Below, piece by piece: positions 1 through 51,600 of a stretch of DNA of 64,000 nucleotides. Under the pieces are notes generated by a model. The model searched no databases. It was given only the letters and a program-made list of their open reading frames with translations, and was not told the DNA's origin. The DNA is taken from contig NC_092679.1 of the NCBI RefSeq assembly GCF_964355755.1, positions 1,302,001 to 1,366,000 on the forward strand. Direction: 5' to 3'. Source of the DNA: Antedon mediterranea (lineage: Eukaryota > Echinodermata > Crinoidea > Comatulida > Antedonidae). The translations under genes were made by a program, and so were the position numbers. The stretch's first letter is position 1; the number at the start of each line of letters is the position of its first letter.

Positions 1-2373
1 GTATAATGATATAAGCAGTGAGTTAGGCAGATCATAAGTCAGCTCTCCTTAATTGCCTAAGTCACACAGCTAACTTATGCAGAAACACGAAAAATATAGT
101 ATATTGATATGAGCAGTGAGTTAGGTAGATCATAAGTCAGCTCTCCTTAATTGCCTAAGTCACACAGCTGACCCAGGCAGAAACACAACAAATATAGTAT
201 ATTGATATAAGCAGTGAGTTAGGCAGAAAAACAAAACAAAAATTATCACTTAGACACTTTTGTTATGAGGCTGTCAATATCATCTATATACAAAAAATGC
301 TACCTTTAAGTAATAAAATTTAATAGCATCAGCTCTTCAGATTAAAATTAACACTGATGATTTTAGAAAAAGAAAGTAGCAATAAAAGAGAAAGAATTTG
401 TAACAAATGGGTTAGAAAATATACTATAAAATGTATTTCTTATTTTATTTAAAAACTCATGAATCTCCTCTCCTTAATTGCCTAAGTCACACAGCTGACT
501 TAGGCAGAAACACAACAAAACGATTTGAGCATGTGCAAATGTATATAAAAGCACTCAGATAATGTACAGAGGGCAGTATAATGATATAAGCAGTGAGTTA
601 GGCAGATCATAAGTGAGCTCCCCTTAATTGCCTAAGTCACACAGCTGACTTAGGTAGAAACACAAAAAATATAGTATAATGATATAAGCAGTGAGTTAGG
701 CAGATCATAAGTCAGCTCTCCTTAATTGCCTAAGTCACACAGCTGACTTAGGCAGAAAACACGAAAAATATAGTATATTGATATAAGCAGTGAGTTAGGC
801 AGATCATAAGTCAGCTCTCCTTAAATGCCTAAGTCACACAGCTGACTTAGGCAGAAAACACGAAAAATATAGTATATTGATATAAGCAGTGAGTTAGGCA
901 GATCATAAGTCAGCTCTCCTTAATTGCCTAAGTCACACAGATAGTACAGGGATTTTTTCCAAAAATAGCCAAAAATATCAAGTTTTTAAAATTCAATTAT
1001 TATGTTATAAAATTTCTCCATATGATCATATATTGCTTTATCATCACCTTATAGTACCATAGACACCAGTTTTATCGAAAAATAAAAGGGTCGAAAAATG
1101 GCCATTTTTGGAAAAAATCCTTGAACTATGACTTAGGCAGAAACACAAAAAATATAGTATATTGATATAAGCAGTGAGTTAGAAAAACAAACAAAAAATT
1201 GTGACTTAGACTCTTTTGTTATGAGGCTGTCTATATCATCTATATACAAAAAATTTTACCTTTAAGTAACAAAATGTAATAGCATCAGCTCTTCAGATTA
1301 AAATTAACACTGATGATTTTAGAAAAGGAAAGTAGCAATAAAAGAGAAAGAATTTGTAACAAATGGGTTAAAAAATATACTATAAAAATGTATTTCTTAT
1401 TTTATTTAAAAAATCACGAGTCTCCTCTCCTTAATTGCCTAAGTCACACAGCTGACTTAGGCAGAAACACAAAAAACGATCTGAGCGTGTGCAAATGTAT
1501 ATAAAAGCACTCAGATAATGTACAGAGGGCAGTATAATGATATAAGCAGTGAGTTAGGCAGATCATAAGTCAGCTCTCCTTAATTGCCTAAGTCACACAG
1601 CTGACTTAGGCAGAAACACGAAAAATATAGTATATTGATATAAGCAGTGAGTTAGGCAGAAAAACAAAATAAAAATTATCACTTAGACACTTTTGTTATG
1701 AGGCTGTCAATATCATCTATATACAAAAAATGCTACCTTTAAGTAATAAAATTTAATAGCATCAGCTCTTCAGATTAAAATTAACACTGATGATTTTAGA
1801 AAAAGAAAGTAGCAATAAAAGAGAAAGAATTTGTAACAAATGGGTTAGAAAATATACTATAAAATGTATTTCTTATTTTATTTAAAAACTCATGAATCTC
1901 CTCTCCTTAATTGCCTAAGTCACACAGCTGACTTAGGCAGAAACACAACAAAACGATTTGAGCATGTGCAAATGTATATAAAAGCACTCAGATAATGTAC
2001 AGAGGGCAGTATAATGATATAAGCAGTGAGTTAGGCAGATCATAAGTGAGCTCCCCTTAATTGCCTAAGTCACACAGCTGACTTAGGCAGAAACACAAAA
2101 AATATAGTATAATGATATAAGCAGTGAGTTAGGCAGATCATAAGTCAGCTCTCCTTAATTGCCTAAGTCACACAGCTGACTTAGGCAGAAAACACGAAAA
2201 ATATAGTATATTGATATAAGCAGTGAGTTAGGCAGATCATAAGTCAGCTCTCCTTAAATGCCTAAGTCACACAGCTGACTTAGGCAGAAAACACGAAAAA
2301 TATAGTATATTGATATAAGCAGTGAGTTAGGCAGATCATAAGTCAGCTCTCCTTAATTGCCTAAGTCACACAG
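1..2373. repeat. Left part of satellite array, 1,433-bp tandem period
   Basis: The left end of the window starts inside the array. Landmarks recur at 1,432-1,433 bp: the MITE at 941 and 2,374, and the segment beginning TGATTTTAGAAAAAG at about 358 and 1,790. This differs from the 1,239/1,680 alternation to the right, so it is a separate tandem duplication at or near the array's left side. The array probably continues beyond base 1. Confidence 0.85.
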
Positions 2374-2562
2374 ATAGTACAGGGATTTTTTCCAAAAATA
2401 GCCAAAAATATCAAGTTTTTAAAATTCAATTATTATGTTATAAAATTTCTCCATATGATCATATATTGCTTTATCATCACCTTATAGTACCATAGACACC
2501 AGTTTTATTGAAAAATAAAAGGGTCGAAAAATGGCCATTTTTGGAAAAAATCCTTGTACTAT
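2374..2562. mobile_element. MITE-like element captured in the satellite (type copy of 21)
   Basis: This 189-bp element has ~28-bp imperfect terminal inverted repeats: ATAGTACAGGGATTTTTTCC at the left and the complement of GGAAAAAATCCTTGTACTAT at the right. It interrupts the satellite palindrome at CACACAG / GACTTAGG. Other copies in the array start at 941, 3611, 5291, 6531, 8211, 9450, 11130, 12369, 14049, 15135, 16091, 17327, 19006, 20094, 20728, 22923, 23923, 24762, 24942 and 26173. It has no coding capacity. The same family occurs outside the array at 27.43-27.72 kb, so it was probably captured and then amplified with the satellite. Confidence 0.85.
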
Positions 2563-5290
2563 GACTTAGGCAGAAACACAAAAAATATAGTATATTGATA
2601 TAAGCAGTGAGTTAGAAAAACAAACAAAAAATTGTGACTTAGACTCTTTTGTTATGAGGCTGTCCATATCATCTATATACAAAAAAATTGACCTTTAAGT
2701 AACAAAATGTAATAGCATCAGCTCTTCAGATTAAAATTAACACTGATGATTTTAGAAAAGGAAAGTAGCAATAAAAGAGAAAGAATTTGTAACAAATGGG
2801 TTAAAAAATATACTATAAAAATGTATTTCTTATTTTATTTAAAAAATCACGAGTCTCCTCTCCTTAATTGCCTAAGTCACACAGCTGACTTAGGCAGAAA
2901 CACAAAAAACGATGTGAGCGTGTGCAAATGTATATAAAAGCACTCAGATAATGTACAGAGGGCAGTATAATGATATAAGCAGTGAGTTAGGCAGATCATA
3001 AGTCAGCTCTCCTTAATTGCCTAAGTCACACACAGCTGACTTAGGCAGAAACACGAAAAATATAGTATATTGATATAAGCAGTGAGTTAGGCAGAAAAAC
3101 AAAACAAAAATTATCACTTAGACACTTTTGTTATGAGGCTGTCAATATCATCTATATACAAAAAATGCTACCTTTAAGTAACAAAATTTAATAGCATCAG
3201 CTCTTCAGATTAAAATTAACACTGATGATTTTAGAAAAAGAAAGTAGCAATAAAAGAGAAAGAATTTGTAACAAATGGGTTAGAAAATATACTATAAAAT
3301 GTATTTCTTATTTTATTTAAAAACTCATGAATCTCCTCTCCTTAATTGCCTAAGTCACACAGCTGACTTAGACAGAAACCCAAAAAAACGATTTGAGCAT
3401 GTTCAAATGTATATAAAAGCACTGAGATAATGTACAGAGGGCAGTATAATGATATAAGCAGTGAGTTAGGCATATCATAAGTGAGCTCCCCTTAATTGCC
3501 TAAGTCACACAGCTGACTTAGGCAGAAACACAAAAAATATAGTATAATGATATAAGCAAAGAGTTAGGCAGATCATAAGTGAGCTCTCTTTAATTGCCTA
3601 AGTCACACAGATAGTACAGGGATATTTTCCAAAAATAGCCAAAAATATGAAGTTTTTAAAATTCAATTATTATGTTATAAAATTGCTCCATATGATCATA
3701 TATTGCTTTATCATCACCTTATAGTACCATAGACACCAGTTTTATCGAAAAATAAAAGGATCGAAAAATGGCCATTTTTGGAAAAAATCCTTGTACTATG
3801 ACTTAGGCAGAAACACAAAAAATATAGTATATTGATATAAGCAGTGAGTTAGAAAAACAAACAAAAAATTGTGACTTAGACTCTTTTGTTATGAGGCTGT
3901 CCATATCATCTATATACAAAAAATTTTACCTTTAAGTAACAAAATGTAATGGCATCAGCTCTTCAGATTAAAATTAACACTGATGATTTTAGAAAAGGAA
4001 AGTAGCAATAAAAGAGAAAGAATTTGTAACAAATGGGTTAAAAAATATACTATAAAAATGTATTTCTTATTTTATTTAAAAAATCATGAGTCTCTTCTCC
4101 TTAATTGCCTAAGTCACACAGCTGACTTAGGCAGAAACACAAAAAACGATCTGAGCGTGTGCAAATGTATATAAAAGCACTCAGATAATGTACATAGGGC
4201 AGTATAATGATATAAGCAGTGAGTTAGGCAGATCATAAGTCTCCTCTCCTTAATTGCCTAAGTCACACAGCTGACTTAGGCAGAAATACAAAAAACGGTC
4301 TGAGCGTGTGCAAATGTATATAAAAGCACTCAGATAATGTACATAGGGCAGTATAATGATATAAGCAGTGAGTTAGGCAGATCATAAGTCAGCTCTCCTT
4401 AATTGCCTAAGTCACACAGCTAACTTATGCAGAAATACGAAAAATATAGTATATTGATATGAGCAGTGAGTTAGGCAGATCATAAGTCAGCTCTCCTTAA
4501 TTGCCTAAGTCACACAGCTGACCCAGGCAGAAACACAACAAATATAGTATATTGATATAAGCAGTGAGTTAGGCAGAAAAACAAAACAAAAATTATCACT
4601 TAGACACTTTTGTTATGAGGCTGTCAATATCATCTATATACAAAAAATGCTACCTTTAAGTAATAAAATTTAATAGCATCAGCTCTTCAGATTAAAATTA
4701 ACACTGATGATTTTAGAAAAAGAAAGTAGCAATAAAAGAGAAAGAATTTGTAACAAATGGGTTAGAAAATATACTATAAAATGTATTTCTTATTTTATTT
4801 AAAAACTCATGAATCTCCTCTCCTTAATTGCCTAAGTCACACAGCTGACTTAGGCAGAAACACAACAAAACGATTTGAGCATGTGCAAATATATATAAAA
4901 GCACTCAGATAATGTACAGAGGGCAGTATAATGATATAAGCAGTGAGTTAGGCAGATCATAAGTGAGCTCCCCTTAATTGCCTAAGTCACACAGCTGACT
5001 TAGGCAGAAACACAAAAAATATAGTATAATGATATAAGCAGTGAGTTAGGCAGATCATAAGTCAGCTCTCCTTAATTGCCTAAGTCACACAGCTGACTTA
5101 GGCAGAAAACACGAAAAATATAGTATATTGATATAAGCAGTGAGTTAGGCAGATCATAAGTCAGCTCTCCTTAAATGCCTAAGTCACACAGCTGACTTAG
5201 GCAGAAAACACGAAAAATATAGTATATTGATATAAGCAGTGAGTTAGGCAGATCATAAGTCAGCTCTCCTTAATTGCCTAAGTCACACAG
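2374..5290. repeat. 2.92-kb higher-order repeat, copy 1
   Basis: The unit is defined from one MITE start to the second-next MITE start. MITEs at 2,374 and 3,611 split it into a 1,237-bp and a 1,680-bp half. It carries the private variants AGAAATACGAAA near 4,432 and GCAAATATATATAAAAG near 4,887, which recur exactly two units later in copy 3. Confidence 0.9.
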
Positions 5291-8210
5291 ATAGTACAGG
5301 GATTTTTTCCAAAAATAGCCAAAAATATCAAGTTTTTAAAATTCAATTATTATGTTATAAAATTTCTCCATATGATCATATATTGCTTTATCATCACCTT
5401 ATAGTACCATAGACACCAGTTTTATTGAAAAATAAAAGGGTCGAAAAATGGCCATTTTTGGAAAAAATCCTTGTACTATGACTTAGGCAGAAACACAAAA
5501 AATATAGTATATTGATATAAGCAGTGAGTTAGAAAAACAAACAAAAAATTGTGACTTAGACTCTTTTGTTATGAGGCTGTCCATATCATCTATATACAAA
5601 AAAATTGACCTTTAAGTAACAAAATGTAATAGAATCAGCTCTTCAGATTAAAATTAACACTGATGATTTTAGAAAAGGAAAGTAGCAATAAAAGAGAAAG
5701 AATTTGTAACAAATGGGTTAAAAAATATACTATAAAAATGTATTTCTTATTTTATTTAAAAAATCACGAGTCTCCTCTCCTTAATTGCCTAAGTCACACA
5801 GCTGACTTAGGCAGAAACACAAAAAACGATGTGAGCGTGTGCAAATGTATATAAAAGCACTCAGATAATGTACAGAGGGCAGTATAATGATATAAGCAGT
5901 GAGTTAGGCAGATCATAAGTCAGCTCTCCTTAATTGCCTAAGTCACACACAGCTGACTTAGGCAGAAACACGAAAAATATAGTATATTGATATAAGCAGT
6001 GAGTTAGGCAGAAAAACAAAACAAAAATTATCACTTAGACACTTTTGTTATGAGGCTGTCAATATCATCTATATACAAAAAATGCTACCTTTAAGTAACA
6101 AAATTTAATAGCATCAGCTCTTCAGATTAAAATTAACACTGATGATTTTAGAAAAAGAAAGTAGCAATAAAAGAGAAAGAATTTGTAACAAATGGGTTAG
6201 AAAATATACTATAAAATGTATTTCTTATTTTATTTAAAAACTCATGAATCTCCTCTCCTTAATTGCCTAAGTCACACAGCTGACTTAGACAGAAACCCAA
6301 AAAAAAAACGATTTGAGCATGTTCAAATGTATATAAAAGCACTGAGATAATGTACAGAGGGCAGTATAATGATATAAGCAGTGAGTTAGGCATATCATAA
6401 GTGAGCTCCCCTTAATTGCCTAAGTCACACAGCTGACTTAGGCAGAAACACAAAAAATATAGTATAATGATATAAGCAAAGAGTTAGGCAGTTCATAAGT
6501 GAGCTCTCTTTAATTGCCTAAGTCACACAGATAGTACAGGGATATTTTCAAAAAATAGCCAAAAATATGAAGTTTTTAAAATTCAATTATTATGTTATAA
6601 AATTGCTCCATATGATCATATATTGCTTTATCATCACCTTATAGTACCATAGACACCAGTTTTATCGAAAAATAAAAGGATCGAAAAATGGCCATTTTTG
6701 GAAAAAATCCTTGTACTATGACTTAGGCAGAAACACAAAAAATATAGTATATTGATATAAGCAGTGAGTTAGAGAAACAAACAAAAAATTGTGACTTAGA
6801 CTCTTTTGTTATGAGGCTGTCCATATCATCTATATACAAAAAATTTTACCTTTAAGTAACAAAATGTAATGGCATCAGCTCTTCAGATTAAAATTAACAC
6901 TGATGATTTTAGAAAAGGAAAGTAGCAATAAAAGAGAAAGAATTTGTAACAAATGGGTTAAAAAATATACTATAAAAATGTATTTCTTATTTTATTTAAA
7001 AAATCATGAGTCGCCTCTCCTTAATTGCCTAAGTCACACAGCTGACTTAGGCAGAAACACAAAAAACGATCTGAGCATGTGCAAATGTATATAAAAGCAC
7101 TCAGATAATGTACAGAGGGCAGTATAATGATATAAGCAGTGAGTTAGGCAGATCATAAGTCTCCTCTCCTTAATTGCCTAAGTCACACAGCTGACTTAGG
7201 CAGAAATACAAAAAACGGTCTGAGCGTGTGCAAATGTATATAAAAGCACTCAGATAATGTACATAGAGCAGTATAATGATATAAGCAGTGAGTTAGGCAG
7301 ATCATAAGTCAGCTCTCCTTAATTGCCTAAGTCACACAGCTAACTTATGCAGAAACACGAAAAATATAGTATATTGATATGAGCAGTGAGTTAGGCAGAT
7401 CATAAGTCAGCTCTCCTTAATTGCCTAAGTCACACAGCTGACCCAGGCAGAAACACAACAAATATAGTATATTGATATAAGCAGTGAGTTAGGCAGAAAA
7501 ACAAAACAAAAATTATCACTTAGACACTTTTGTTATGAGGCTGTCAATATCATCTATATACAAAAAATGCTACCTTTAAGTAATAAAATTTAATAGCATC
7601 AGCTCTTCAGATTAAAATTAACACTGATGATTTTAGAAAAAGAAAGTAGCAATAAAAGAGAAAGAATTTGTAACAAATGGGTTAGAAAATATACTATAAA
7701 ATGTATTTCTTATTTTATTTAAAAACTCATGAATCTCCTCTCCTTAATTGCCTAAGTCACACAGCTGACTTAGGCAGAAACACAACAAAACGATTTGAGC
7801 ATGTGCAAATGTATATAAAAGCACTCAGATAATGTACAGAGGGCAGTATAATGACATAAGCAGTGAGTTAGGCAGATCATAAGTGAGCTCCCCTTAATTG
7901 CCTAAGTCACACAGCTGACTTAGGCAGAAACACAAAAAATATAGTATAATGATATAAGCAGTGAGTTAGGCAGATCATAAGTCAGCTCTCCTTAATTGCC
8001 TAAGTCACACAGCTGACTTAGGCAGAAAACACGAAAAATATAGTATAATGATATAAGCAGTGAGTTAGGCAGATCATAAGTCAGCTCTCCTTAATTGCCT
8101 AAGTCACACAGCTGACTTAGGCAGAAAACACGAAAAATATAGTATATTGATATAAGCAGTGAGTTAGGCAGATCATAAGTCAGCTCTCCTTAATTGCCTA
8201 AGTCACACAG
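5291..8210. repeat. 2.92-kb higher-order repeat, copy 2
   Basis: MITEs lie at 5,291 and 6,531 (halves of 1,240 and 1,680 bp). Private variants are TAGAATCAGCTC near 5,632, GCAGTTCATAAGTG near 6,489 and ATAATGACATAAGC near 7,850. All three reappear in copy 4, 5,838-5,839 bp downstream. Confidence 0.9.
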
Positions 8211-11129
8211 ATAGTACAGGGATTTTTTCCAAAAATAGCCAAAAATATCAAGTTTTTAAAATTCAATTATTATGTTATAAAATTGCTCCATATGATCATA
8301 TATTGCTTTATCATCACCTTATAGTACCATAGACACCAGTTTTATTGAAAAATAAAAGGGTCGAAAAATGGCCATTTTTGGAAAAAATCCTTGTACTATG
8401 ACTTAGGCAGAAACACAAAAAATATAGTATATTGATATAAGCAGTGAGTTAGAAAAACAAACAAAAAATTGTGACTTAGACTCTTTTGTTATGAGGCTGT
8501 CCATATCATCTATATACAAAAAAATTGACCTTTAAGTAACAAAATGTAATAGCATCAGCTCTTCAGATTAAAATTAACACTGATGATTTTAGAAAAGGAA
8601 AGTAGCAATAAAAGAGAAAGAATTTGTAACAAATGGGTTAAAAAATATACTATAAAAATGTATTTCTTATTTTATTTAAAAAATCACGAGTCTCCTCTCC
8701 TTAATTGCCTAAGTCACACAGCTGACTTAGGCAGAAACACAAAAAACGATGTGAGCGTGTGCAAATGTATATAAAAGCACTCAGATAATGTACAGAGGGC
8801 AGTATAATGATATAAGCAGTGAGTTAGGCAGATCATAAGTCAGCTCTCCTTAATTGCCTAGGTCACACACAGCTGACTTAGGCAGAAACACGAAAAATAT
8901 AGTATATTGATATAAGCAGTGAGTTAGGCAGAAAAACAAAACAAAAATTATCACTTAGACACTTTTGTTATGAGGCTGTCAATATCATCTATATACAAAA
9001 AATGCTACCTTTAAGTAACAAAATTTAATAGCATCAGCTCTTCAGATTAAAATTAACACTGATGATTTTAGAAAAAGAAAGTAGCAATAAAAGAGAAAGA
9101 ATTTGTAACAAATGGGTTAGAAAATATACTATAAAATGTATTTCTTATTTTATTTAAAAACTCATGAATCTCCTCTCCTTAATTGCCTAAGTCACACAGC
9201 TGACTTAGACAGAAACCCAAAAAAAAACGATTTGAGCATGTTCAAATGTATATAAAAGCACTGAGATAATGTACAGAGGGCAGTATAATGATATAAGCAG
9301 TGAGTTAGGCATATCATAAGTGAGCTCCCCTTAATTGCCTAAGTCACACAGCTGACTTAGGCAGAAACACAAAAAATATAGTATAATGATATAAGCAAAG
9401 AGTTAGGCAGATCATAAGTGAGCTCTCTTTAATTGCCTAAGTCACACAGATAGTACAGGGATATTTTCCAAAAATAGCCAAAAATATGAAGTTTTTAAAA
9501 TTCAATTATTATGTTATAAAATTGCTCCATATGATCATATATTGCTTTATCATCACCTTATAGTACCATAGACACCAGTTTTATCGAAAAATAAAAGGAT
9601 CGAAAAATGGCCATTTTTGGAAAAAATCCTTGTACTATGACTTAGGCAGAAACACAAAAAATATAGTATATTGATATAAGCAGTGAGTTAGAAAAACAAA
9701 CAAAAAATTGTGACTTAGACACTTTTGTTATGAGGCTGTCCATATCATCTATATACAAAAAATTTTACCTTTAAGTAACAAAATGTAATGGCATCAGCTC
9801 TTCAGATTAAAATTAACACTGATGATTTTAGAAAAGGAAAGTAGCAATAAAAGAGAAAGAATTTGTAACAAATGGGTTAAAAAATATACTATAAAAATGT
9901 ATTTCTTATTTTATTTAAAAAATCATGAGTCTCCTCTCCTTAATTGCCTAAGTCACACAGCTGACTTAGGCAGAAACACAAAAAACGATCTGAGCGTGTG
10001 CAAATGTATATAAAAGCACTCAGATAATGTACATAGGGCAGTATAATGATATAAGCAGTGAGTTAGGCAGATCATAAGTCTCCTCTCCTTAATTGCCTAA
10101 GTCACACAGCTGACTTAGGCAGAAATACAAAAAACGGTCTGAGCGTGTGCAAATGTATATAAAAGCACTCAGATAATGTACATAGGGCAGTATAATGATA
10201 TAAGCAGTGAGTTAGGCAGATCATAAGTCAGCTCTCCTTAATTGCCTAAGTCACACAGCTAACTTATGCAGAAATACGAAAAATATAGTATATTGATATG
10301 AGCAGTGAGTTAGGCAGATCATAAGTCAGCTCTCCTTAATTGCCTAAGTCACACAGCTGACCCAGGCAGAAACACAACAAATATAGTATATTGATATAAG
10401 CAGTGAGTTAGGCAGAAAAACAAAACAAAAATTATCACTTAGACACTTTTGTTATGAGGCTGTCAATATCATCTATATACAAAAAATGCTACCTTTAAGT
10501 AATAAAATTTAATAGCATCAGCTCTTCAGATTAAAATTAACACTGATGATTTTAGAAAAAGAAAGTAGCAATAAAAGAGAAAGAATTTGTAACAAATGGG
10601 TTAGAAAATATACTATAAAATGTATTTCTTATTTTATTTAAAAACTCATGAATCTCCTCTCCTTAATTGCCTAAGTCACACAGCTGACTTAGGCAGAAAC
10701 ACAACAAAACGATTTGAGCATGTGCAAATATATATAAAAGCACTCAGATAATGTACAGAGGGCAGTATAATGATATAAGCAGTGAGTTAGGCAGATCATA
10801 AGTGAGCTCCCCTTAATTGCCTAAGTCACACAGCTGACTTAGGCAGAAACACAAAAAATATAGTATAATGATATAAGCAGTGAGTTAGGCAGATCATAAG
10901 TCAGCTCTCCTTAATTGCCTAAGTCACACAGCTGACTTAGGCAGAAAAGACGAAAAATATAGTATATTGATATAAGCAGTGAGTTAGGCAGATCATAAGT
11001 CAGCTCTCCTTAAATGCCTAAGTCACACAGCTGACTTAGGCAGAAAACACGAAAAATATAGTATATTGATATAAGCAGTGAGTTAGGCAGATCATAAGTC
11101 AGCTCTCCTTAATTGCCTAAGTCACACAG
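8211..11129. repeat. 2.92-kb higher-order repeat, copy 3
   Basis: MITEs lie at 8,211 and 9,450. It matches copy 1 in the AGAAATACGAAA variant near 10,272 and the GCAAATATATATAAAAG variant near 10,725, unlike its immediate neighbours. This points to a two-unit amplification step. Confidence 0.9.
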
Positions 11130-14048
11130 ATAGTACAGGGATTTTTTCCAAAAATAGCCAAAAATATCAAGTTTTTAAAATTCAATTATTATGTTATAAA
11201 ATTTCTCCATATGATCATATATTGCTTTATCATCACCTTATAGTACCATAGACACCAGTTTTATTGAAAAATAAAAGGGTCGAAAAATGGCCATTTTTGG
11301 AAAAAATCCTTGTACTATGACTTAGGCAGAAACACAAAAAATATAGTATATTGATATAAGCAGTGAGTTAGAAAAACAAACAAAAAATTGTGACTTAGAC
11401 TCTTTTGTTATGAGGCTGTCCATATCATCTATATACAAAAAAATTGACCTTTAAGTAACAAAATGTAATAGAATCAGCTCTTCAGATTAAAATTAACACT
11501 GATGATTTTAAAAAAGGAAAGTAGCAATAAAAGAGAAAGAATTTGTAACAAATGGGTTAAAAAATATACTATAAAAATGTATTTCTTATTTTATTTAAAA
11601 AATCACGAGTCTCCTCTCCTTAATTGCCTAAGTCACACAGCTGACTTAGGCAGAAACACAAAAAACGATGTGAGCGTGTGCAAATGTATATAAAAGCACT
11701 CAGATAATGTACAGAGGGCAGTATAATGATATAAGCAGTGAGTTAGGCAGATCATAAGTCAGCTCTCCTTAATTGCCTAAGTCACACACAGCTGACTTAG
11801 GCAGAAACACGAAAAATATAGTATATTGATATAAGCAGTGAGTTAGGCAGAAAAACAAAACAAAAATTATCACTTAGACACTTTTGTTATGAGGCTGTCA
11901 ATATCATCTATATACAAAAAATGCTACCTTTAAGTAACAAAATTTAATAGCATCAGCTCTTCAGATTAAAATTAACACTGATGATTTTAGAAAAAGAAAG
12001 TAGCAATAAAAGAGAAAGAATTTGTAACAAATGGGTTAGAAAATATACTATAAAATGTATTTCTTATTTTATTTAAAAACTCATGAATCTCCTCTCCTTA
12101 ATTGCCTAAGTCACACAGCTGACTTAGACAGAAACCCAAAAAAAAACGATTTGAGCATGTTCAAATGTATATAAAAGCACTGAGATAATGTACAGAGGGC
12201 AGTATAATGATATAAGCAGTGAGTTAGGCATATCATAAGTGAGCTCCCCTTAATTGCCTAAGTCACACAGCTGACTTAGGCAGAAACACAAAAAATATAG
12301 TATAATGATATAAGCAAAGAGTTAGGCAGTTCATAAGTGAGCTCTCTTTAATTGCCTAAGTCACACAGATAGTACAGGGATATTTTCCAAAAATAGCCAA
12401 AAATATGAAGTTTTTAAAATTCAATTATTATGTTATAAAATTGCTCCATATGATCATATATTGCTTTATCATCACCTTATAGTACCATAGACACCAGTTT
12501 TATCGAAAAATAAAAGGATCGAAAAATGGCCATTTTTGGAAAAAATCCTTGTACTATGACTTAGGCAGAAACACAAAAAATATAGTATATTGATATAAGC
12601 AGTGAGTTAGAAAAACAAACAAAAAATTGTGACTTAGACTCTTTTGTTATGAGGCTGTCCATATCATCTATATACAAAAAATTTTACCTTTAAGTAACAA
12701 AATGTAATGGCATCAGCTCTTCAGATTAAAATTAACACTGATGATTTTAGAAAAGGAAAGTAGCAATAAAAGAGAAAGAATTTGTAACAAATGGGTTAAA
12801 AAATATACTATAAAAATGTATTTCTTATTTTATTTAAAAAATCATGAGTCTCCTCTCCTTAATTGCCTAAGTCACACAGCTGACTTAGGCAGAAACACAA
12901 AAAACGATCTGAGCGTGTGCAAATGTATATAAAAGCACTCAGATAATGTACATAGGGCAGTATAATGATATAAGCAGTGAGTTAGGCAGATCATAAGTCT
13001 CCTCTCCTTAATTGCCTAAGTCACACAGCTGACTTAGGCAGAAATACAAAAAACGGTCTGAGCGTGTGCAAATGTATATAAAAGCACTCAGATAATGTAC
13101 ATAGGGCAGTATAATGATATAAGCAGTGAGTTAGGCAGATCATAAGTCAGCTCTCCTTAATTGCCTAAGTCACACAGCTAACTTATGCAGAAACACGAAA
13201 AATATAGTATATTGATATGAGCAGTGAGTTAGGCAGATCATAAGTCAGCTCTCCTTAATTGCCTAAGTCACACAGCTGACCCAGGCAGAAACACAACAAA
13301 TATAGTATATTGATATAAGCAGTGAGTTAGGCAGAAAAACAAAACAAAAATTATCACTTAGACACTTTTGTTATGAGGCTGTCAATATCATCTATATACA
13401 AAAAATGCTACCTTTAAGTAATAAAATTTAATAGCATCAGCTCTTCAGATTAAAATTAACACTGATGATTTTAGAAAAAGAAAGTAGCAATAAAAGAGAA
13501 AGAATTTGTAACAAATGGGTTAGAAAATATACTATAAAATGTATTTCTTATTTTATTTAAAAACTCATGAATCTCCTCTCCTTAATTGCCTAAGTCACAC
13601 AGCTGACTTAGGCAGAAACACAACAAAACGGTTTGAGCATGTGCAAATGTATATAAAAGCACTCAGATAATGTACAGAGGGCAGTATAATGACATAAGCA
13701 GTGAGTTAGGCAGATCATAAGTGAGCTCCCCTTAATTGCCTAAGTCACACAGCTGACTTAGGCAGAAACACAAAAAATATAGTATAATGATATAAGCAGT
13801 GAGTTAGGCAGGTCATAAGTCAGCTCTCCTTAATTGCCTAAGTCACACAGCTGACTTAGGCAGAAAACACGAAAAATATAGTATAATGATATAAGCAGTG
13901 AGTTAGGCAGATCATAAGTCAGCTCTCCTTAATTGCCTAAGTCACACAGCTGACTTAGGCAGAAAACACGAAAAATATAGTATATTGATATAAGCAGTGA
14001 GTTAGGCAGATCATAAGTCAGCTCTCCTTAATTGCCTAAGTCACACAG
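11130..14048. repeat. 2.92-kb higher-order repeat, copy 4
   Basis: MITEs lie at 11,130 and 12,369. It shares the variants of copy 2: TAGAATCAGCTC near 11,470, GCAGTTCATAAGTG near 12,327 and ATAATGACATAAGC near 13,688. Confidence 0.9.
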
Positions 14049-23700: not shown

Positions 23701-26340
23701 ATCTATATACAAAAAATGCTACCTTTAAGTAACAAAATTTAATAGCATCAGCTCTTCAGATTAAAATTAACACTGATGATTTTAGAAAAAGAAAGTAGCA
23801 ATAAAAGAGAAAGAATTTGTAACAAATGGGTTAGAAAATATACTATACAATGTATTTCTTATTTTATTTAAAAACTCATGAATCTCCTCTCCTTAATTGC
23901 CTAAGTCACACTATAGTGTACTATAGTACAGGGATTTTTTCCAAAAAATGGCCAAAAATATCAAGTTTTTAAAATTCAATTATTATGTTATAAAATTGCT
24001 CCATATGATCATATATTGCTTTATCATCACCTAATAGTACCATAGACACCAGTTTTATCGAAAAATTGCCATTTTTGGAAAAAATCCTTGTACTATGACT
24101 TAGGCAGAAACACAAAAAATATAGTATATTGATATAAGCAGTGAGTTAGGCAGATCATAAGTCAGCTCTCCTTAATTGCCTAAGTCACACAGCTGACCCA
24201 GGCAGAAACACGAAAAATATAGTATATTGATATAAGCAGTGAGTTAGGCAGAAAAACAAAACAAAAATTATCACTTAGACACTTTTGTTATGAAGCTGTC
24301 AATATCATCTATATACAAAAAATGCTACCTTTAAGTAACAAAATTTAATAGCTTCAGATAAAAATTAACACTGATGATTTTAGAAAAAGAAAGTAGCAAT
24401 AAAAGAAAAAGAATTTGTAACAAATGGGGTAGAAAATATACTATAAAATGTATTTCTTATTTTATTTAAAAACTCATGAATCTCCTCTCCTTAATTGCCT
24501 AAGTCACACAGCTGACTTAGGCAGAAACACAAAAAAACGATTTGAGCAGTGTGCAAATGTATATAAAAGCACTCAGATAATGTACAGAGGGCAGTATAAT
24601 GATATAAGCAGTGAGTTAGGCAGATCATAAGTCATCTCTCCTTAATTGCCTAAGTCACACAGCTGACTTAGGCAGAAACCACGAAAAATATAGTATATTG
24701 ATATAAGCAGTGAGTTAGGCAGATCATAAGTCAGCTCTCCTTAATTGCCTAAGTCACACAGATAGTACAAGGATTTTTTCCAAAAATGGCCAAAATATCA
24801 AGTTTTTAAAATTCAATTATTATGCTATAAAATTGCTCTATATGATCATATATTGCTTTATCATCACCTTATAGTACCATAGACACCAGTTTTATCAAAA
24901 AATAAAAGGGTCGAAAATGGCCATTTTTAGAAAAAATCCCTCTACAGGGATTTTTTCCAAAAATAACCAAAAATATCAAGTTTTTAAAATTCAATTATTA
25001 TGTTATAAAATTGCTCCATATGATCATATATTGCTTTATCATCACCTTATAGTACCATAGACACCAGTTTTATCGAAAAATAAAAGGGTCGAAAAATGGC
25101 CATTTTTGGAAAAAATCCTTGTACTATGACTTAGGCAGAAACACAAAAAATATAGTATATTGATATAAGCAGTGAGTTAGAAAAACAAACAAAAAATTGT
25201 GACTTAGACTCTTTTGTTATGAGGCTGTCCATATCATCTATATACAAAAAATTTTACCTTTAAGTAACAAAATGTAATAGCATCAGCTCTTCAGATTAAA
25301 ATTAACACTGATGATTTTAGAAAAGGAAAGTAGCAATAAAGAGAAAGAATTTGTAACAAATGGGTTAAAAAATATACTATAAAAATGTATTTCTTATTTT
25401 ATTAAAAAAATTATGAGTCTCCTCTCCTTAATTGCCTTAGTCACACAGCTGACTTAGGCAGAAACACAAAAAACGATCTGAGCGTGTGCAAATGTATATA
25501 AAAGCACTCAGATAATGTACAGAGGGCAGTATAATGATATAAGCAGTGAGTTAGGCAGATCATAAGTCTCCTCTCCTTAATTGCCTAAGTCACACAGCTA
25601 ACTTAGGCAGAAACACGAAAAATATAGTATATTGATATAAGCAGTGAGTTAGGCAGATCATAAGTCAGCTCTCCTTAATTGCCTAAGTCACACAGCTGAC
25701 TTAGGCAGAAACACAAAAATATAGTATATTGATATAAGCAGTGAGTTAGACAGAAAAACAAAACAAAAATTATCACTTAGACACTTTTGTTATGAGGCTG
25801 TCAATATCATCTATATACAAAAAATGCTACCTTTAAGTAACAAAATTTAATAGCATCAGCTCTTCAGATTAAAATTAACACTGATGATTTTAGAAAAAAA
25901 AAGTAGCAATAAAAGAGAAAGAATTTGTAACAAATGGGTTAAAAAATATACTATAACATGTATTTCTTATTTTATTTAAAAACTCATGAATCTCCTCTCC
26001 TTAATTGCCTAAGTCACACAACTGACTTAGGCAGAAACACAAAAAAAACGATTTGAGCGTGTGCAAATGTATATAAAAGCACTCAGATAATGTACAGAGG
26101 GCAGTATAATGATATAAGCAGTGAGTTAGGCAGATCATAAGTGAGCTCCCCTTAATTGCCTAAGTCACACAGATAGTACAGGGATTTTTTCCAAAAATTG
26201 CCAAAATATCAAGTTTTTAAAATTCAATTATTATGCTATAAAATTGCTCTATATGATCATATATTGCTTTAGCGTCACCTTATAGTACCATAGACACCAG
26301 TTTTATCGAAAAATAAAAGAGTCGAAAAATTGCCATTTTT
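20728..26340. repeat. Irregular right portion of the satellite array
   Basis: MITEs at 20,728, 22,923, 23,923, 24,762, 24,942 and 26,173 no longer follow the 1,239/1,680 spacing. A 569-bp segment is tandemly duplicated almost exactly (about 21,703-22,271 and 22,272-22,840). Two MITE copies sit head to tail at 24,762-25,130, the first truncated. Private deletions become common, as expected at an array edge that homogenisation no longer reaches. Confidence 0.85.
21703..22840. repeat. 569-bp exact tandem duplication
   Basis: Two adjacent 569-bp blocks are almost identical base for base, including private features such as ATGGGGTAGAAAATGTAC and GAGCAGTGTGCAAATG. A related single copy lies near 24,200-24,660. 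This is a very recent local duplication within the array. Confidence 0.85.
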
Positions 26341-26460
26341 AGTCGCGTGGACGTTCACTATGTCGGTCGGTCTGTCGGTCTGTCTGTCGGTCCGGTATCA
26401 CTGCGTTTTAGCACGCGACTTATGGCTGTTGGCCTTGTTAGAAAAAATCCCGTTTTTGGA
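26341..26460. repeat. GTCGGTC-rich unclassified repeat element
   Basis: A GC-richer insert interrupts the last satellite MITE. It begins GTCGCGTGGACG, contains (GTCGGTC/GTCTGTC)n, and has CACGCGAC near 26,411, which is the inverted complement of the opening GTCGCGTG. It looks like a short interspersed element, but the family was not identified. Confidence 0.5.
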
Positions 26461-26461
26461 A

Positions 26462-26720
26462 TAAACATGCGCAGAGACGAATAATGGGTTCTCCGCATGT
26501 CAATTGTGCTATAGTAACCAGTTTTACCGAAAAATAAAAAGGTCGAAAATTTGCCATTTTTTGAAAAAATCCCTGTACTATAGTACAGGGAAATTTTCGA
26601 AAAATGACCGATTATCGACCCTTTTTTGTTGTTGACATAAATGGTTACTATTGCATAATAAACATGCGCAGAGACGAATAATGGGTTCTGCGCATGTCAA
26701 TTGTGCTATAGTAACCAGAA
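26462..26720. repeat. Direct repeat with array-edge MITE debris
   Basis: A ~60-bp sequence beginning AACATGCGCAGAGACG and ending GCTATAGTAACCAG occurs at about 26,463-26,522 and again at 26,661-26,719. Each copy is itself partly palindromic (ACATGCGCAGA / TCCGCATGT). Between them lies a fragment of the satellite MITE end, ATAGTACAGGG, near 26,580. Confidence 0.7.
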
Positions 26721-28137
26721 TAACAAGACACCTTTTAAGACATGATATATTAAAATTAATTTATTTTTGGAATCGTTTTTGTAGGCCTACAGACACTACT
26801 GTACACATTTCCCACATTTCTGTATATATTTAGTGTGTACATAGACATAGATAACTAAAAATAAGTTTAAAATATTGTTTTTCATGTTTCTTGTATTTTT
26901 ATTTTAGTTTTACTAGTATTAATTTAAGAGGGAGAATATTCAATAATAATATCATTACGGTGTTCACATAGTCTCTCCAGGGTATTTAATTCTAAATATT
27001 CAAGAAATAAAATGAATACTCTAATAATAACTAAACAAGTTTAAGTGAGTATTGAATAAAATAGTTATTGACAATTATTCGTAGGGCAGTACCAAATTAT
27101 GTTTAAAACAACAACATTACACAGGTTGCTGTGCAATTAACACCATTGTTGTGCACTTGAATGGGTTTCCTATGACATAATAGGTGTTAATATGTCAATT
27201 GGGTGAGTCTTTCATGGCATTTGTAGTTGAGTTAGTCTTTGGTGACAATAGTAACACACACTTGCAATTGAGTGGTATTTTGATTTTTAAATTTCATATT
27301 TCTAGTTAAAATTTTGAATATCTGAATATACCACAAGGTGTATCATTCCCTAAATAGCTCAAAAAGCTAAAAAAGTGATTTTTGAAAAATGTGTCAGTTA
27401 AGTCGTTCTTTCACTGACAGGGCAGTATAGTACAGGGATTTTTCAAAAAATGACCAAAATATCAAGTTTTTACAATTCAATTATTATGCGATAAAACTGC
27501 TATATATGATACAATTGCTTTATCGTCATCTTATAGTACCATAGACACCAGTTTTGTCGAAAAATAAAATTTTTGAAAATTTGTCATTTTTTCAAAAAAT
27601 GGCCAAAATATCAAGTTTTTAAAATTCAATTATTATGTGATAAAACTGCTCTATATGATCATATATTGCTTTATCATCATCTTATAGTACCATAGACACC
27701 AGTTATGTCGAAAAATAGCCAATAGCCACAAAATAAAAAGAAAAACCAAATTGCCTATTGTTGTGTGTTGATAATTGTTGATGACTGATGGTCATGTACA
27801 GACAGTAACCACTGTTCCTTGGTTAAGTGAGCTCTTGATTAGAGCACGACGGCCAATCACAATACTGTTTTAAGAGTGTCGATTTCAAGTTGAATAGATT
27901 GTAAATAGATTGTTAAAGAACATAAGAATAAAACAAAAGAAAAGATGAATAACTAATAAAGTATGATTAATTATACTAGGGAGCTTCCAACGGCTGACAA
28001 ACGTATTACGTCATGTTACTTTATTGTGTGCATGCAAAGATATTAGGACGTGTGTCCTCGCTCCTCACCTTAGTCCAGTGACCACTGATGACCTAACCTA
28101 GGTTGGTCGTCACAAATTGAAAGCTACCTCAAAGTAC
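26721..28137. other. Intergenic region between satellite and first gene
   Basis: Apart from the degenerate MITE pair at 27.43-27.72 kb, I see no gene, RNA or splice-supported exon. The segment 27,115-27,270 repeats phrases such as TGTGCAATTAACACCATT and TGTGCACTTGAATGGG, suggesting an old repeat. A minus-strand poly(A) signal (AATAAA, seen as TTTATT at about 28,021) fits the end of the gene that stops at 28,138. Confidence 0.6.
27425..27716. mobile_element. Two degenerate tandem copies of the satellite MITE
   Basis: The recognisable core, TAGTACCATAGACACCAGTT, appears at about 27,533 and 27,684. The preceding AATTCAATTATTATG and TATCAAGTTTTT blocks also appear twice. Several substitutions separate both copies from the homogeneous satellite copies, so these are older and are not being homogenised with the array. 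Confidence 0.85.
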
Positions 28138-31100
28138 TTAACTATGATTAGATGATATTAAATAAAGGATATCGGCAACATCATAATTCTCTTCTTCAAT
28201 TGCTGATTCTAGTGCCTGCTGTAATTTTGCAATTACTTGCCTTTCTTCCTCATGTTTATCACACTGTAAGAAATTCACAGAGTCATGTATGTTTATTTGT
28301 TGGTAATTTGGAGGAGGAGGGGAGTTAAAGGGAGGAGGATTAAAAAATGAAATATAATTATTATCAATTATTAAAATGATATTTACTGAACGTACCACGA
28401 GTATATCATTATTTACTGGGTGTTGTAGCAGATATTCCTCAGCGTCTCCATCAAACATTACATGTAAATGATTACATAAGTACTTTATCCATAAACTACA
28501 TGTTTGAATCTCTGCTTGTATAATCTGCTTTGTCATCATTGGCTGGTGATCATCATGTGACACAAGTTCTTTGATCTTTTGGAAAGTACTTCGGGCTGAA
28601 TCGAGATGCTGCAAACCTGAAATTAGTGGCAATAATAAATTTACATTTTAAATATGCTAGCCGACCAATAGCCTACCCTTTATAGATACAACAAGGAAAT
28701 ATAGGTAATCTTTTGTTTATAACTCTACCACCTTTTCATCAGTTAAATACCTTGTTTCTTTTCTTCTGTATCTAACTGTGTTTCTAATTCATCTTGTTCC
28801 TTTCTTATTGCTGATAATTCCTTTTTCAGTTTTTCTAATTGCTCTCTACTCTTCTCAAGCTCTTCTTCTATACTTGCTATTTCTTGAACCATAGATTTCA
28901 GCTCTATTGATAACTTTTTAGCCTCCGAAAAGTGCTTTCCTAATCAATCAGTAAGAATCAATACAAATCAATAATAATCAATGAGAATCAATATGAATCA
29001 TTAGGAATCAATAGGAATCAATAGAAATCAATAAGAATCAATAGGAATCAATAGTTGTCAATAAGAATCGATCAGAATCAATAGGAATCAATAATAACCA
29101 ATAAGAATTAATAGGAATCATTAAGAATCAATGAGAATCAATAGGAATCAATAAGAATCAATAGAAATCAATAAGAATCAATAGGAATCAATAAGAATCA
29201 ATAGTAGTCAATAAGAATCGATAAGAATCAATAGGAATCCATAAGAATCAATAATAACCAATAAGAATCAATAGGAATCAATAATAACCAATAAGAATTA
29301 ATAGGAATAAAAAAGAATCAATAGGAATCAATAAGAAAAAATACGAATGAAATAGTGAATAAAAGAATGTGAAACATTCATATCAACATTATAAGATCAA
29401 TTTGCATGTCTATAGTGGTCCTCCAAAGGTGACCCAGTTTTAGGAAGTTGATTGTATGTATACCCTGTACTGCAGCCTGTTTAGCTACTTTAATTTCTTC
29501 TACTTGGCAACGCAGACTTGAGAGGGTTTTTGTTTGTAATGTAACTTCCGTTTGTTTGAAGATCATTGAAGATGTGGCGTTCTTTATCTTCTCAATTCCT
29601 TCACAAGTTATATCTTGTAATCTACAAATACAATTGAGATTGAGCAAAGCTTAAGATTAAGCAAAGCTTACTAAGATTGAACAAAGCTTAATATTTGTGT
29701 TAGTTTAGAGGCTCTCAACTTGAATTGAGAATTAGCTCCAAAAAACGAACACAACACAATTAAACTGAATACAGTACTTTGGATAGAAATGATTGGAAAG
29801 ACCCGACCAGATGTTCCATGTTGGCAGATGCAGTGATCCCAACATGAAAGTATAAAATGTATACCTGCATGATTCATATATTTAAATATAAACAGGCTCA
29901 CCTAGCAACACACTGTGACTGGTTGATTTCTAAAGTAGCAACAGTCAAGTCTGGTACCAATTGACCATCTGTTTTCTTCAGCACACGCAGGTTTGCTATA
30001 TTTGTCTCAATAACACCATTTACAACTGCTAACAAGTTGTCATATCTAAATTAATGTTTCATTATTGGTTAGATTAATTATAATCAGTCATAACAAAGAA
30101 TAGAACTACAAAGCAGGCTACATAATAATTCTGATGATGTCACTGATAAAGACAATAACATTGACAAACACTTACTTCTTTTCTTCTTTATCATACCATT
30201 GTGATTTAGTCTTCATTTCATCTTCATCTGACGTCAATTTACTCTCCAAAGTATTTAGTTCATGTTCTCTGTTCTTAATCTCTATTTGGTCTTTTTCTAA
30301 TTGTTGGATCTCATTGCTAAATCCATCCCTGACATTTGTAATAAGTTTATTCTGCTCTTCAATATCGTCTTTGATTTCTTTCTCCTGCTTTCTCAAACAT
30401 TCTAATTTCTTCAGTAATTCTTCAATTTCATCCTTTTATTAAATGCATAAAAAACATGGAACAATAAACACACTGCAAAACATATAGGCCTATGGGTAAA
30501 AGTCTTGTTTGGTAAATTTGTTAAAAATGTTTTACACCACAAAGTAAAATATTAAGATTTAATAGTTTTTGGCAAAATACAAATATAATTGCCCAGTAAG
30601 CCTGTAGCCAGGAGGAATTGTACAGGTTGGTTTTGAACATCCCCTCTCGTTAGCAGGCTATTGGCTTGCACTGTTAGCAGGCTATGGAAATTTGCCCAAT
30701 TAGCATGCTATGGGCTTGCCCGGCTATCAGTCTATGAGCTTGCCCTATTATGGTGCAAAAAAATATAATTATATGTTCTTATTTTTACCTGTACACATTG
30801 CTGTTGAATTTCTAGTAAACTTTTTTTTGTGTCAAATTCTTTGGTTTCTTCTGCAATTCTATCTTCAAGGAGTTTCTCACATTTTAGTACGTCTTCTTGG
30901 TCTAATGTTAAATGTCTGAAAACAATGTAATTGGAAAAAATTTAACAAATAATTTGTAAAATACTGCAGATAATATCTAAAGCTCTGTCTACACTATCAA
31001 ACTTAATGTGACAAAAAAATGTGATGTGCCAAAATATAGACATGATGTTATATCACTAGCATATTTGGGTATATCACTACCATATTTGGGCACATCACAC

Positions 31101-48632: not shown

Positions 48633-51600
48633 ATGGCAGGTTGTTCAACAAGCGAGGGAGGAGGACACAATATTACTGATAAAAATGAGAGTGATGGCGA
48701 AATTGTTTCCATGATTGATGTCTTAAATGCAGATAATGATTTGGAGGAAGAGGCTAATGCTGTCTTGGGAGACAGCGATGATAAATGTTGTACATTTCCC
48801 CAGGTCAGAAACGGTTCAAGTTAGGCCCATCATAATGATCAATCCCTTGCCATGTGGGTTCTATTTCGCAGGGAGATGTCGATCATTTCCTCATCCATTG
48901 ATTGACACATATTCGGCCTAGCGATTTGGATTGTTTCGTTATGTGTAATCTTTTCTGTTAATGATGAAACACCAAACTAACATGTTTACAATTATAGTAG
49001 TGAAAACAACAAATACATTTTCTATTATATTTACAAATCATACTACTAGGCTAGGCCTACTACTAAACTTATTAACAAATAAAATAATACTATTACTGTC
49101 TACTACTACTAGTAACTATTAGAGTACTATTCAACTACACTGTACCTATAGACTATAGTACAGACTATTATTATATACTAGTATTGTTGTTATATATTTT
49201 CAGGGCTATCTTGGTAGACAAGCATTGTATGCTTGTGAGACGTGCTGTCCTGATGGACTTTCTGAAGCGGCCATTTGCCTGGCCTGTAGCTACGAATGTC
49301 ACGAGGGACATGATCTGTACGAGTTATACACTAAAAGGTGCATTTCACAAGATATGTTGAAATAACTTATTGTGTCATAAAGAAGGCCCTGTGTACAGTA
49401 TTGCTGTTGAATAAGTTACTCACTGTTAAATTGTATTATTCTAATGTCCGTATAAATGTTTTTTTGTTTCATTTTTTTCAGACACATCAGATGTGATTGC
49501 GGCAACACCAAATTCCAGAATCTAACCTGCAAGATTTTTCCAGTGAGTAAAAAAAAAACAACAGAAAATGCCAAAATAAACCCACAGCTAACCAATCAAA
49601 TCAACTAAATCTATTACTACACAGTACTAATACCAAGTAATTAGTACCATTTTTATTTTGTCCTTTTAGAACAAATCGGAAATAAATGACGAGAACAAGT
49701 ACAATCAAAATTACAAAGGATTGTACTGCACATGTAAGCGGCCATACCCTGACCCTGATGACGAGGTAATGCAAATTAAAATTAATGTTGTTTGTGCATT
49801 GGTTACTCAACAAACCTTTTAACTTTTATAAAATTTATTTAGACCCTCATCTTTATACAATTATGATAATAAACAGTGGATTGATTGGTTGATCAGCAAA
49901 TGAATGCATGTGCCTGAAAGATGATAAAAAAAACATCTTTTGTTCTTTCTTTGTGGAAGTGGAATATATTAAAACATGAACTTGAATTTACTTTTAATAG
50001 GTAGCAGATGAAATGATTCAGTGTGTTGTATGTGAAGACTGGTATCATGGCAGAGTAAGCAAACTACTAGTATTTTCATATCTGGCACCCAAGTGTTATA
50101 TTTACTGAAGCTCAGTCTACACTATCAAGCCATACTGCGTTGAAATACGGCCATACTGCGTTGAAACACCGGTTCTCGTCAGATCACCGAAGTTAAGCAA
50201 CGTTGGGCCCGGTTGCGTTCTGGATGGGAGACCGTCTAGAAATAGTGGCGGGTGCTGTATATACTGGAGAGTGATGGTGTAATGGTAATATCGGACTAGC
50301 ATGTGATAGGCATGGGTTCGAGGTTATCTGTACCATACTAATTGCATCCTTAGGCAAGATGCTTTACTCTCATTGCCTAATCTGGTAGGCGCTGCACTGC
50401 TGGCTGCCGTGGGTCCGTGGAGGGCCTAATCCGAATTTCCTCACTGAGGACAAAATATTAATATACAAAATATTTCCTTGATCAAACTAGTTTGACAAAA
50501 AAGTGTGATGTGCTCAAATATGGTAGTAATATGATGTCATCACATTTTTTTATCACATAAGTTTGATAGTGAAGACAGAGCTTTAGGCAGCCTAGGCTCA
50601 AGAATTAGGCTTTTACTACACTGCATATTATTTGTTACACAGATGTGAATATAGACCAAATATAATTAACCTGAAAAAAATAAACATTTCTAATCCTTTC
50701 ACTCTAAAATTACATTAAAAAAATTATAAAGTTGTAAAGAACAGAGATTTGAAAATTATTTGAACACAGGACCTCCACTTGATGTTGTTGCATTTTATTT
50801 TAGCACCTTGGTATTGGACCACCTGAGTATATGGATTATCAGGAGATGATATGCACAACATGCATGGATAAGCACAGCTTCTTATGGGCTTACACCGTTG
50901 ACAGCATTGGTGAGATATTGAAAAATATTATGTAAGAATTTTCCAAATCAAAGGATTTAACGACGCCCTATTTAACGACGCCCTATTAATTGCCATGCAA
51001 TAATTTATTTTTACTTTTTAACAGAAACTAAATGCATTGAAAACCAAGAAGATACAAAACCTGTAGAAATTGAGAATAAAAATACCGTGGAAGAAGAGAA
51101 GACCGACAACGTACAAGGGGAAGAAGCACCTCCAGCTAAAAGAAGTCGGCAAACAGATTATGATACAGTTAGTTCGGCTCAAGAAGAAAAAACTGAAAAT
51201 ACTTCCAGTGCAGCCAACGAAGCCGCTAATAAAACAACCGATGAAGCAACACAAGAAGACACAAAGGATGGTTTAAAACCTGCCAATGAAAATAAATTAG
51301 AACATTCTAACGAGGAGAGTGAATTAGGCTGTATACTAGATGAATTAATGAAAAGAAGTTTGAAACCAGCGCAACATGCTACATTCTGGCCCAGCGGCTG
51401 GAGAGCAAAGTTGTGTGCATGCCTAAAATGCAAGGTAAATCAACAAGCAGCAGGAGCAAGTTTATTAAAACAAATACAAACATTTATACTGTAGGATAGC
51501 TTCTGGACACAGCAAAGTTAAATAGGAGTTGGTCATAGTCTTAACATTTATACTGTATTTACTTTTGTTCATTTCACAGAAACGTGTCCTTTTAAGACTC

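Follow-up and report, generated by a model that had tools for sequence, protein, structure and literature searches.

The 64,000-bp stretch of DNA analysed here (the window, C10:1302001-1366000, from a genome of 354.4 Mb in 18 contigs) begins within a tandem repeat array that is very probably a non-coding satellite, one array of which took up an inverted-repeat element, E, and was then reshaped by exchange, nested duplication and spread over contig C10. Other loci carry the satellite but no E, and others again carry E but no satellite, which bears out the initial annotation of a higher-order satellite with a captured inverted repeat.

Structure of the satellite array

Component segmentation of the window and 40 kb upstream delimits the whole array as a 61-kb tandem repeat block (C10:~1,267,389-1,328,340), the right-hand part of which, cut by the window start, occupies window positions 1 to ~26,340 (1-26337 in the segmentation), with ~34.6 kb more lying upstream. 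All array features described below are on the plus strand. Within window positions 1-26,600, 2,919 bp is the commonest and strongest self-offset, as expected from the 2.92-kb periodicity proposed initially, and positions 2374-14048 contain exactly four units, of 2917 bp (2374-5290; halves 2374-3610 and 3611-5290), 2920 bp (5291-8210; halves 5291-6530 and 6531-8210), 2919 bp (8211-11129; halves 8211-9449 and 9450-11129) and 2919 bp (11130-14048; halves 11130-12368 and 12369-14048). Pairwise identity between these units is 99.42-99.83%, corresponding to 5-17 substitutions. The alternation of 1,239- and 1,680-bp halves, each with a 189-bp inverted-repeat element, was likewise recovered: the shorter halves measure 1237, 1240, 1239 and 1239 bp, the longer ones 1680 bp, and a copy of E opens every half. 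The two half types are 98.0% identical over aligned bases, with 443 gap positions. As in satellites with higher-order repeats, the units are more alike (99.4-99.8%) than the tandem-repeat monomers (91-97%).

The unusual regularity initially attributed to this architecture holds for the four-unit stretch and its duplicates, whereas across most of the rest of the array the E-to-E spacing is irregular, ranging from 634 to 2,919 bp. The array also contains a tandem self-duplication of 18.7 kb (18,700 bp) at an offset of 17,291 bp (99.82% identity, 28 mismatches); its first copy lies at C10:1275459-1294153, and window positions 1-9449 are therefore the right part of the second copy. At its right end (26173-26580) the array finishes with E followed by an E-family variant carrying a TCGGTC-rich insert, a variant also found inside an E cluster at C11:21.785 Mb. 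Two truncated E-family copies adjoin the array at 27426-27717, the left one beginning directly after GGGCAG with the E terminus TATAGTACAGGGA.

Four components build the array, rather than the three first described: a 98/99-bp monomer (M), a 55-bp block (T) that had been missed, a ~234-bp block (b) and the 189-190-bp element E. The plain ~99-bp monomer, exemplified at 5023-5121, carries an 11-bp inverted repeat, TGCCTAAGTCA/TGACTTAGGCA, and successive monomers meet at the junction TGCCTAAGTCA-CACAGC-TGACTTAGGCA. T takes the place of ATAT between monomers; examples are the GATGTGAGC version at 2909-2963, a 55-bp block with TATATAAAAG, and the GATCTGAGC version at 4146-4200, the latter followed by a 149-bp M+T unit. 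What had been taken for a ~370-bp segment proved to be block b, inserted between M positions 32 and 33, together with pieces of M. Two subtypes of this ~234-bp block were distinguished, namely b1 (3095-3328), which lies at M positions 32|33 and follows plain M, and b2 (2617-2850), which lies within M near positions 27-32 and follows E in the main C10 array. The example copy of E at 2374-2563 is 190 bp long and has a 31-bp terminal inverted repeat (29/31 matches), and the copy opening the first 1,680-bp half lies at 3611-3799. In a further copy (23911-24098) the left junction is longer (CACACTATAGTGTACTATAGTACAGGG) and is interpreted as the remnant of a junction between two E copies.

With the M pieces around E and b omitted, the order of components is E-b2-T-M-b1-T-M-M' in the 1,239-bp half and E-b2-T-M-T-M-M-b1-T-M-M-M-M' in the 1,680-bp half, where M' is a monomer cut at position 70. 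The linked variants reported at the outset are most evident in T, which occurs in each unit in five versions in the fixed order GATGTGAGCG, GATTTGAGCATGTTC, GATCTGAGCG, GGTCTGAGCG, GATTTGAGCATGTGC; the order is not absolute, since two of the four units each contain one deviant T (GATCTGAGCATG at 7066 and GGTTTGAGC at 13628).

The satellite is non-coding, with no open frame of 120 codons anywhere in the array (window 1-26,337) and no Rfam family at curated thresholds; a relaxed Rfam search of the array gave chance-level matches only, and Pfam searches of the window frames gave sub-threshold matches only. A coding repeat was accordingly rejected, as was an RNA gene (spliced leader or small nuclear RNA), which the TATA-like T block and the hairpins had suggested. 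The array is presumably without cellular function. Elsewhere in the window, a single full-length 5S rRNA match (50143-50263, plus strand; 71.7 bits, Rfam RF00001) lies in otherwise gene-like surroundings, and a ten-base minisatellite, AATCAATAAG, with about 40 copies (28946-29348) lies next to gene-like minus-strand frames. Two more minisatellites, TTATCTACCAGGA x23 and a 16/36-bp repeat, occupy 59789-60088 and 60752-61105.

Distribution of the satellite and of E in the genome

Genome searches, in which the best candidates were scored and copy numbers are lower bounds, recovered at least 2,880 M cores (within three mismatches), at least 621 b blocks and at least 310 T+M patterns (within two mismatches). 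Among the matches listed, M/b/T arrays grouped by eye into ~37 loci, mostly without E, on six of the 18 contigs (C2, C6, C8, C9, C10 and C11; C12-C18 at exact match only), and a first search with a 1,201-bp query returned only E-free arrays among the matches listed. Arrays at C8:26.67 Mb and C11:21.35 Mb match the C10 array in their order of M, b and T, with no E inside. On C2, two near-identical segments (15.88 and 15.95 Mb) hold a short M/T stretch that ends inside b; they represent a duplicated locus and are not bordered by E. At C6:26.505 Mb (piece 266-570), an isolated M/T lies after a segment of b in inverted orientation (74%) and several TGACTTAGGCA/TGCCTAAGTCA motifs; this piece is possibly a relic of the sequence that gave rise to M.

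E belongs to a large dispersed family, with at least 687 termini (340 + 347) within 3 mismatches on many contigs, compared with 0 in the control. Members form tandem units of ~185 bp on C4 and modular, palindromic clusters elsewhere, and are candidate foldback elements. At C11:21349001-21351090, palindromic E-family units of ~285 bp (GGTTACTATAGCA...TGCTATAGTAACC) are arrayed in tandem and directly adjoin an E-free M array. The initial designation of E as a MITE agrees with its small size (190 bp), lack of coding capacity, 31-bp terminal inverted repeat (29/31) and many dispersed copies, and is at odds with the missing target-site duplication and with the usual tandem or palindromic arrangement of the family. 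Judged from sequence features, E is likely a MITE. Fourteen other places with E-family sequence were inspected, none with clean unique flanks on both sides that could show a target-site duplication.

Junctions between E and the monomer

E sits at one fixed point of the monomer, M 70|72, and the monomer phase continues through it. Within the array, GTCACACAG|ATAGTACA is common to all 43 left M/E junctions and TTG(T/A)ACTAT|GACTT to 45 right junctions. Across the genome, 60 left junctions were counted, 58 on C10 (0.336, 0.910, 1.268-1.328, 2.050-2.060 and 2.494 Mb) and 2 on C11 (both at 21.785 Mb), whereas the 56 right junctions are confined to C10, where they lie between 0.306 and 2.060 Mb. In a tree of E copies, those of C10 group together. 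At the C11 junction, the adjacent E belongs to another subfamily, while the third copy in that multimer resembles the E of C10. Runs of consecutive E copies (E-E-E and E-E) are still present at the margins of the main array, at C10:0.906 Mb and at C11:21.785 Mb.

No target-site duplication flanks E in M: the filled site reads CACACAG[A..TAT]GACTT, compared with CACACAGCTGACTT, and does not contain the C of CACACAG-C-TGACTT. A Tc1/mariner-type TA insertion into M was rejected, as the predicted TA-type empty site was not found anywhere in the genome, the eight matches being ordinary M with a duplicated CA.

Origin and spread of the E-bearing units

The most economical history is one capture, followed by unequal exchange and local spread. 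The complex M/b/T repeat is widespread, with dispersed arrays on several chromosomes, and in one array a single monomer would have received E, probably as a short multimer derived from a foldback-like family of inverted repeats that is dispersed and mobile. Through unequal crossing-over, conversion or both, E may then have been cut to one copy per block, the 1,239-, 1,680- and 2,919-bp higher-order units built, a 17.3-kb stretch duplicated in tandem and E-bearing units spread over the initial ~2.5 Mb of chromosome C10. The nested periods, the E multimers located at array edges and the ordered variants fit unequal exchange and conversion, which are the probable engine of this remodelling. Counting against the scheme are the missing target-site duplication and the C11 left junction into another E subfamily, a junction that calls for an E multimer or else for two separate events at one base. 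Capture of a single E multimer that was later reduced would account for both the subfamily mixture on C11 and the persisting E-E and E-E-E stretches.

For the first step, the complete E and the uninterrupted monomer phase make transposition of E into M likely. The serious rival, given that the target duplication and the TA-type empty site are absent, is recombination of an M array with an adjacent E cluster through template switching or repair, which would leave the subsequent amplification unaffected. E clusters border M arrays at several loci, and an end junction could therefore have been drawn into an array; E-family clusters lie directly against the C10 and C11 (21.35 Mb) arrays at either end and against the isolated M on C6, and other E/M junctions at C10:0.906 Mb sit at a shared GC point. 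However, the M phase continues through E from position 70 to 72, as for an insertion and unlike random end joining, and both ends of E are family termini. Entry by recombination is thus a possible first step, though we hold it to be the less probable one.

The E-family sequence that borders the arrays read on C10 and C11 and lies beside the isolated C6 copy might instead indicate that the satellite arrays are cargo, bounded by E-family foldback elements and moved by them around the genome. This is improbable, as E does not border the short M stretch in either of its two C2 copies, E clusters are common enough for adjacency to arise by chance, and a complete E-M-E unit flanked by a target duplication was not encountered. 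There is a correspondingly slight chance that such elements actively carry and seed M/b/T, in which case E clusters would regularly bound the arrays and the capture of E would mark a route by which the satellite becomes mobile between chromosomes, C10 and C11 sharing the left junction.

A centromeric identity of the arrays, with E capture as a side effect of centromere satellite turnover, would agree with the higher-order units and with the mid-chromosome clusters on C2 (12.7-16.5 Mb) and C8 (10.2-16.1 Mb). It is very improbable given that arrays were found only on C2, C6, C8, C9, C10 and C11 among the matches listed (with C12-C18 covered at exact match only), and that each of these chromosomes has many small arrays, several of them near contig ends. 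As to the position of the array relative to telomeres, TTAGGG arrays cap only the start of C3 in the assembly and are uninformative for C10. It is equally hard to credit an assembly artefact in which one locus or two alleles were placed repeatedly: the 28 mismatches of the 18.7-kb duplicate are within the range of allelic differences, and that copy could be a misplaced allele, which also weighs against capture followed by amplification, but the units differ by ordered variants and indels, the array flanks are unrelated, and E-bearing arrays with differing unit lengths occur at five places on C10.

Comparison with known satellite systems

Alpha-satellite higher-order repeats consist of near-identical multi-monomer units of more diverged monomers and contain nested duplications. 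The units of the C10 array are likewise near-identical and multi-monomer, with nested duplications; the arrays here differ in being small and in having four unrelated components per unit.

Satellites with a MITE or mariner element inside the repeat are known from Messor ants and from rye, in which D1100 contains Tnr1 (PMC9659126, PMC5139131). There, as here, the satellite units contain a short class II element or are associated with one; the present case differs in that a single assembled genome has arrays both with and without E, that the junction has been traced genome-wide and that an extra 17.3-kb level of repetition is visible. In Drosophila virilis, the Tetris/TIR-220 satellite grew from the element's own terminal repeats (PMC4079207). 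That system shares with the present one a foldback-like inverted-repeat element close to satellite arrays and modular tandem copies, whereas the satellite described here is a separate sequence that took up E. Bivalve pearl-family MITEs with BIV160/Cg170-type repeats hold short satellite arrays inside the element (PMC5139131); they resemble the present case in that short satellite arrays and inverted-repeat elements intermingle in networks dispersed over many loci, with the relationship reversed, as the element here lies inside the satellite.

The process is therefore already known from other species, and the C10 array is an unusually clear example with good internal controls. One genome holds three states: the satellite before capture (several chromosomes), the E multimer (array edges and C11) and the reduced and amplified form (C10). 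Together these provide an ordered, junction-marked record of a mobile-element-like sequence joining a satellite unit, a worked case rather than a new mechanism.
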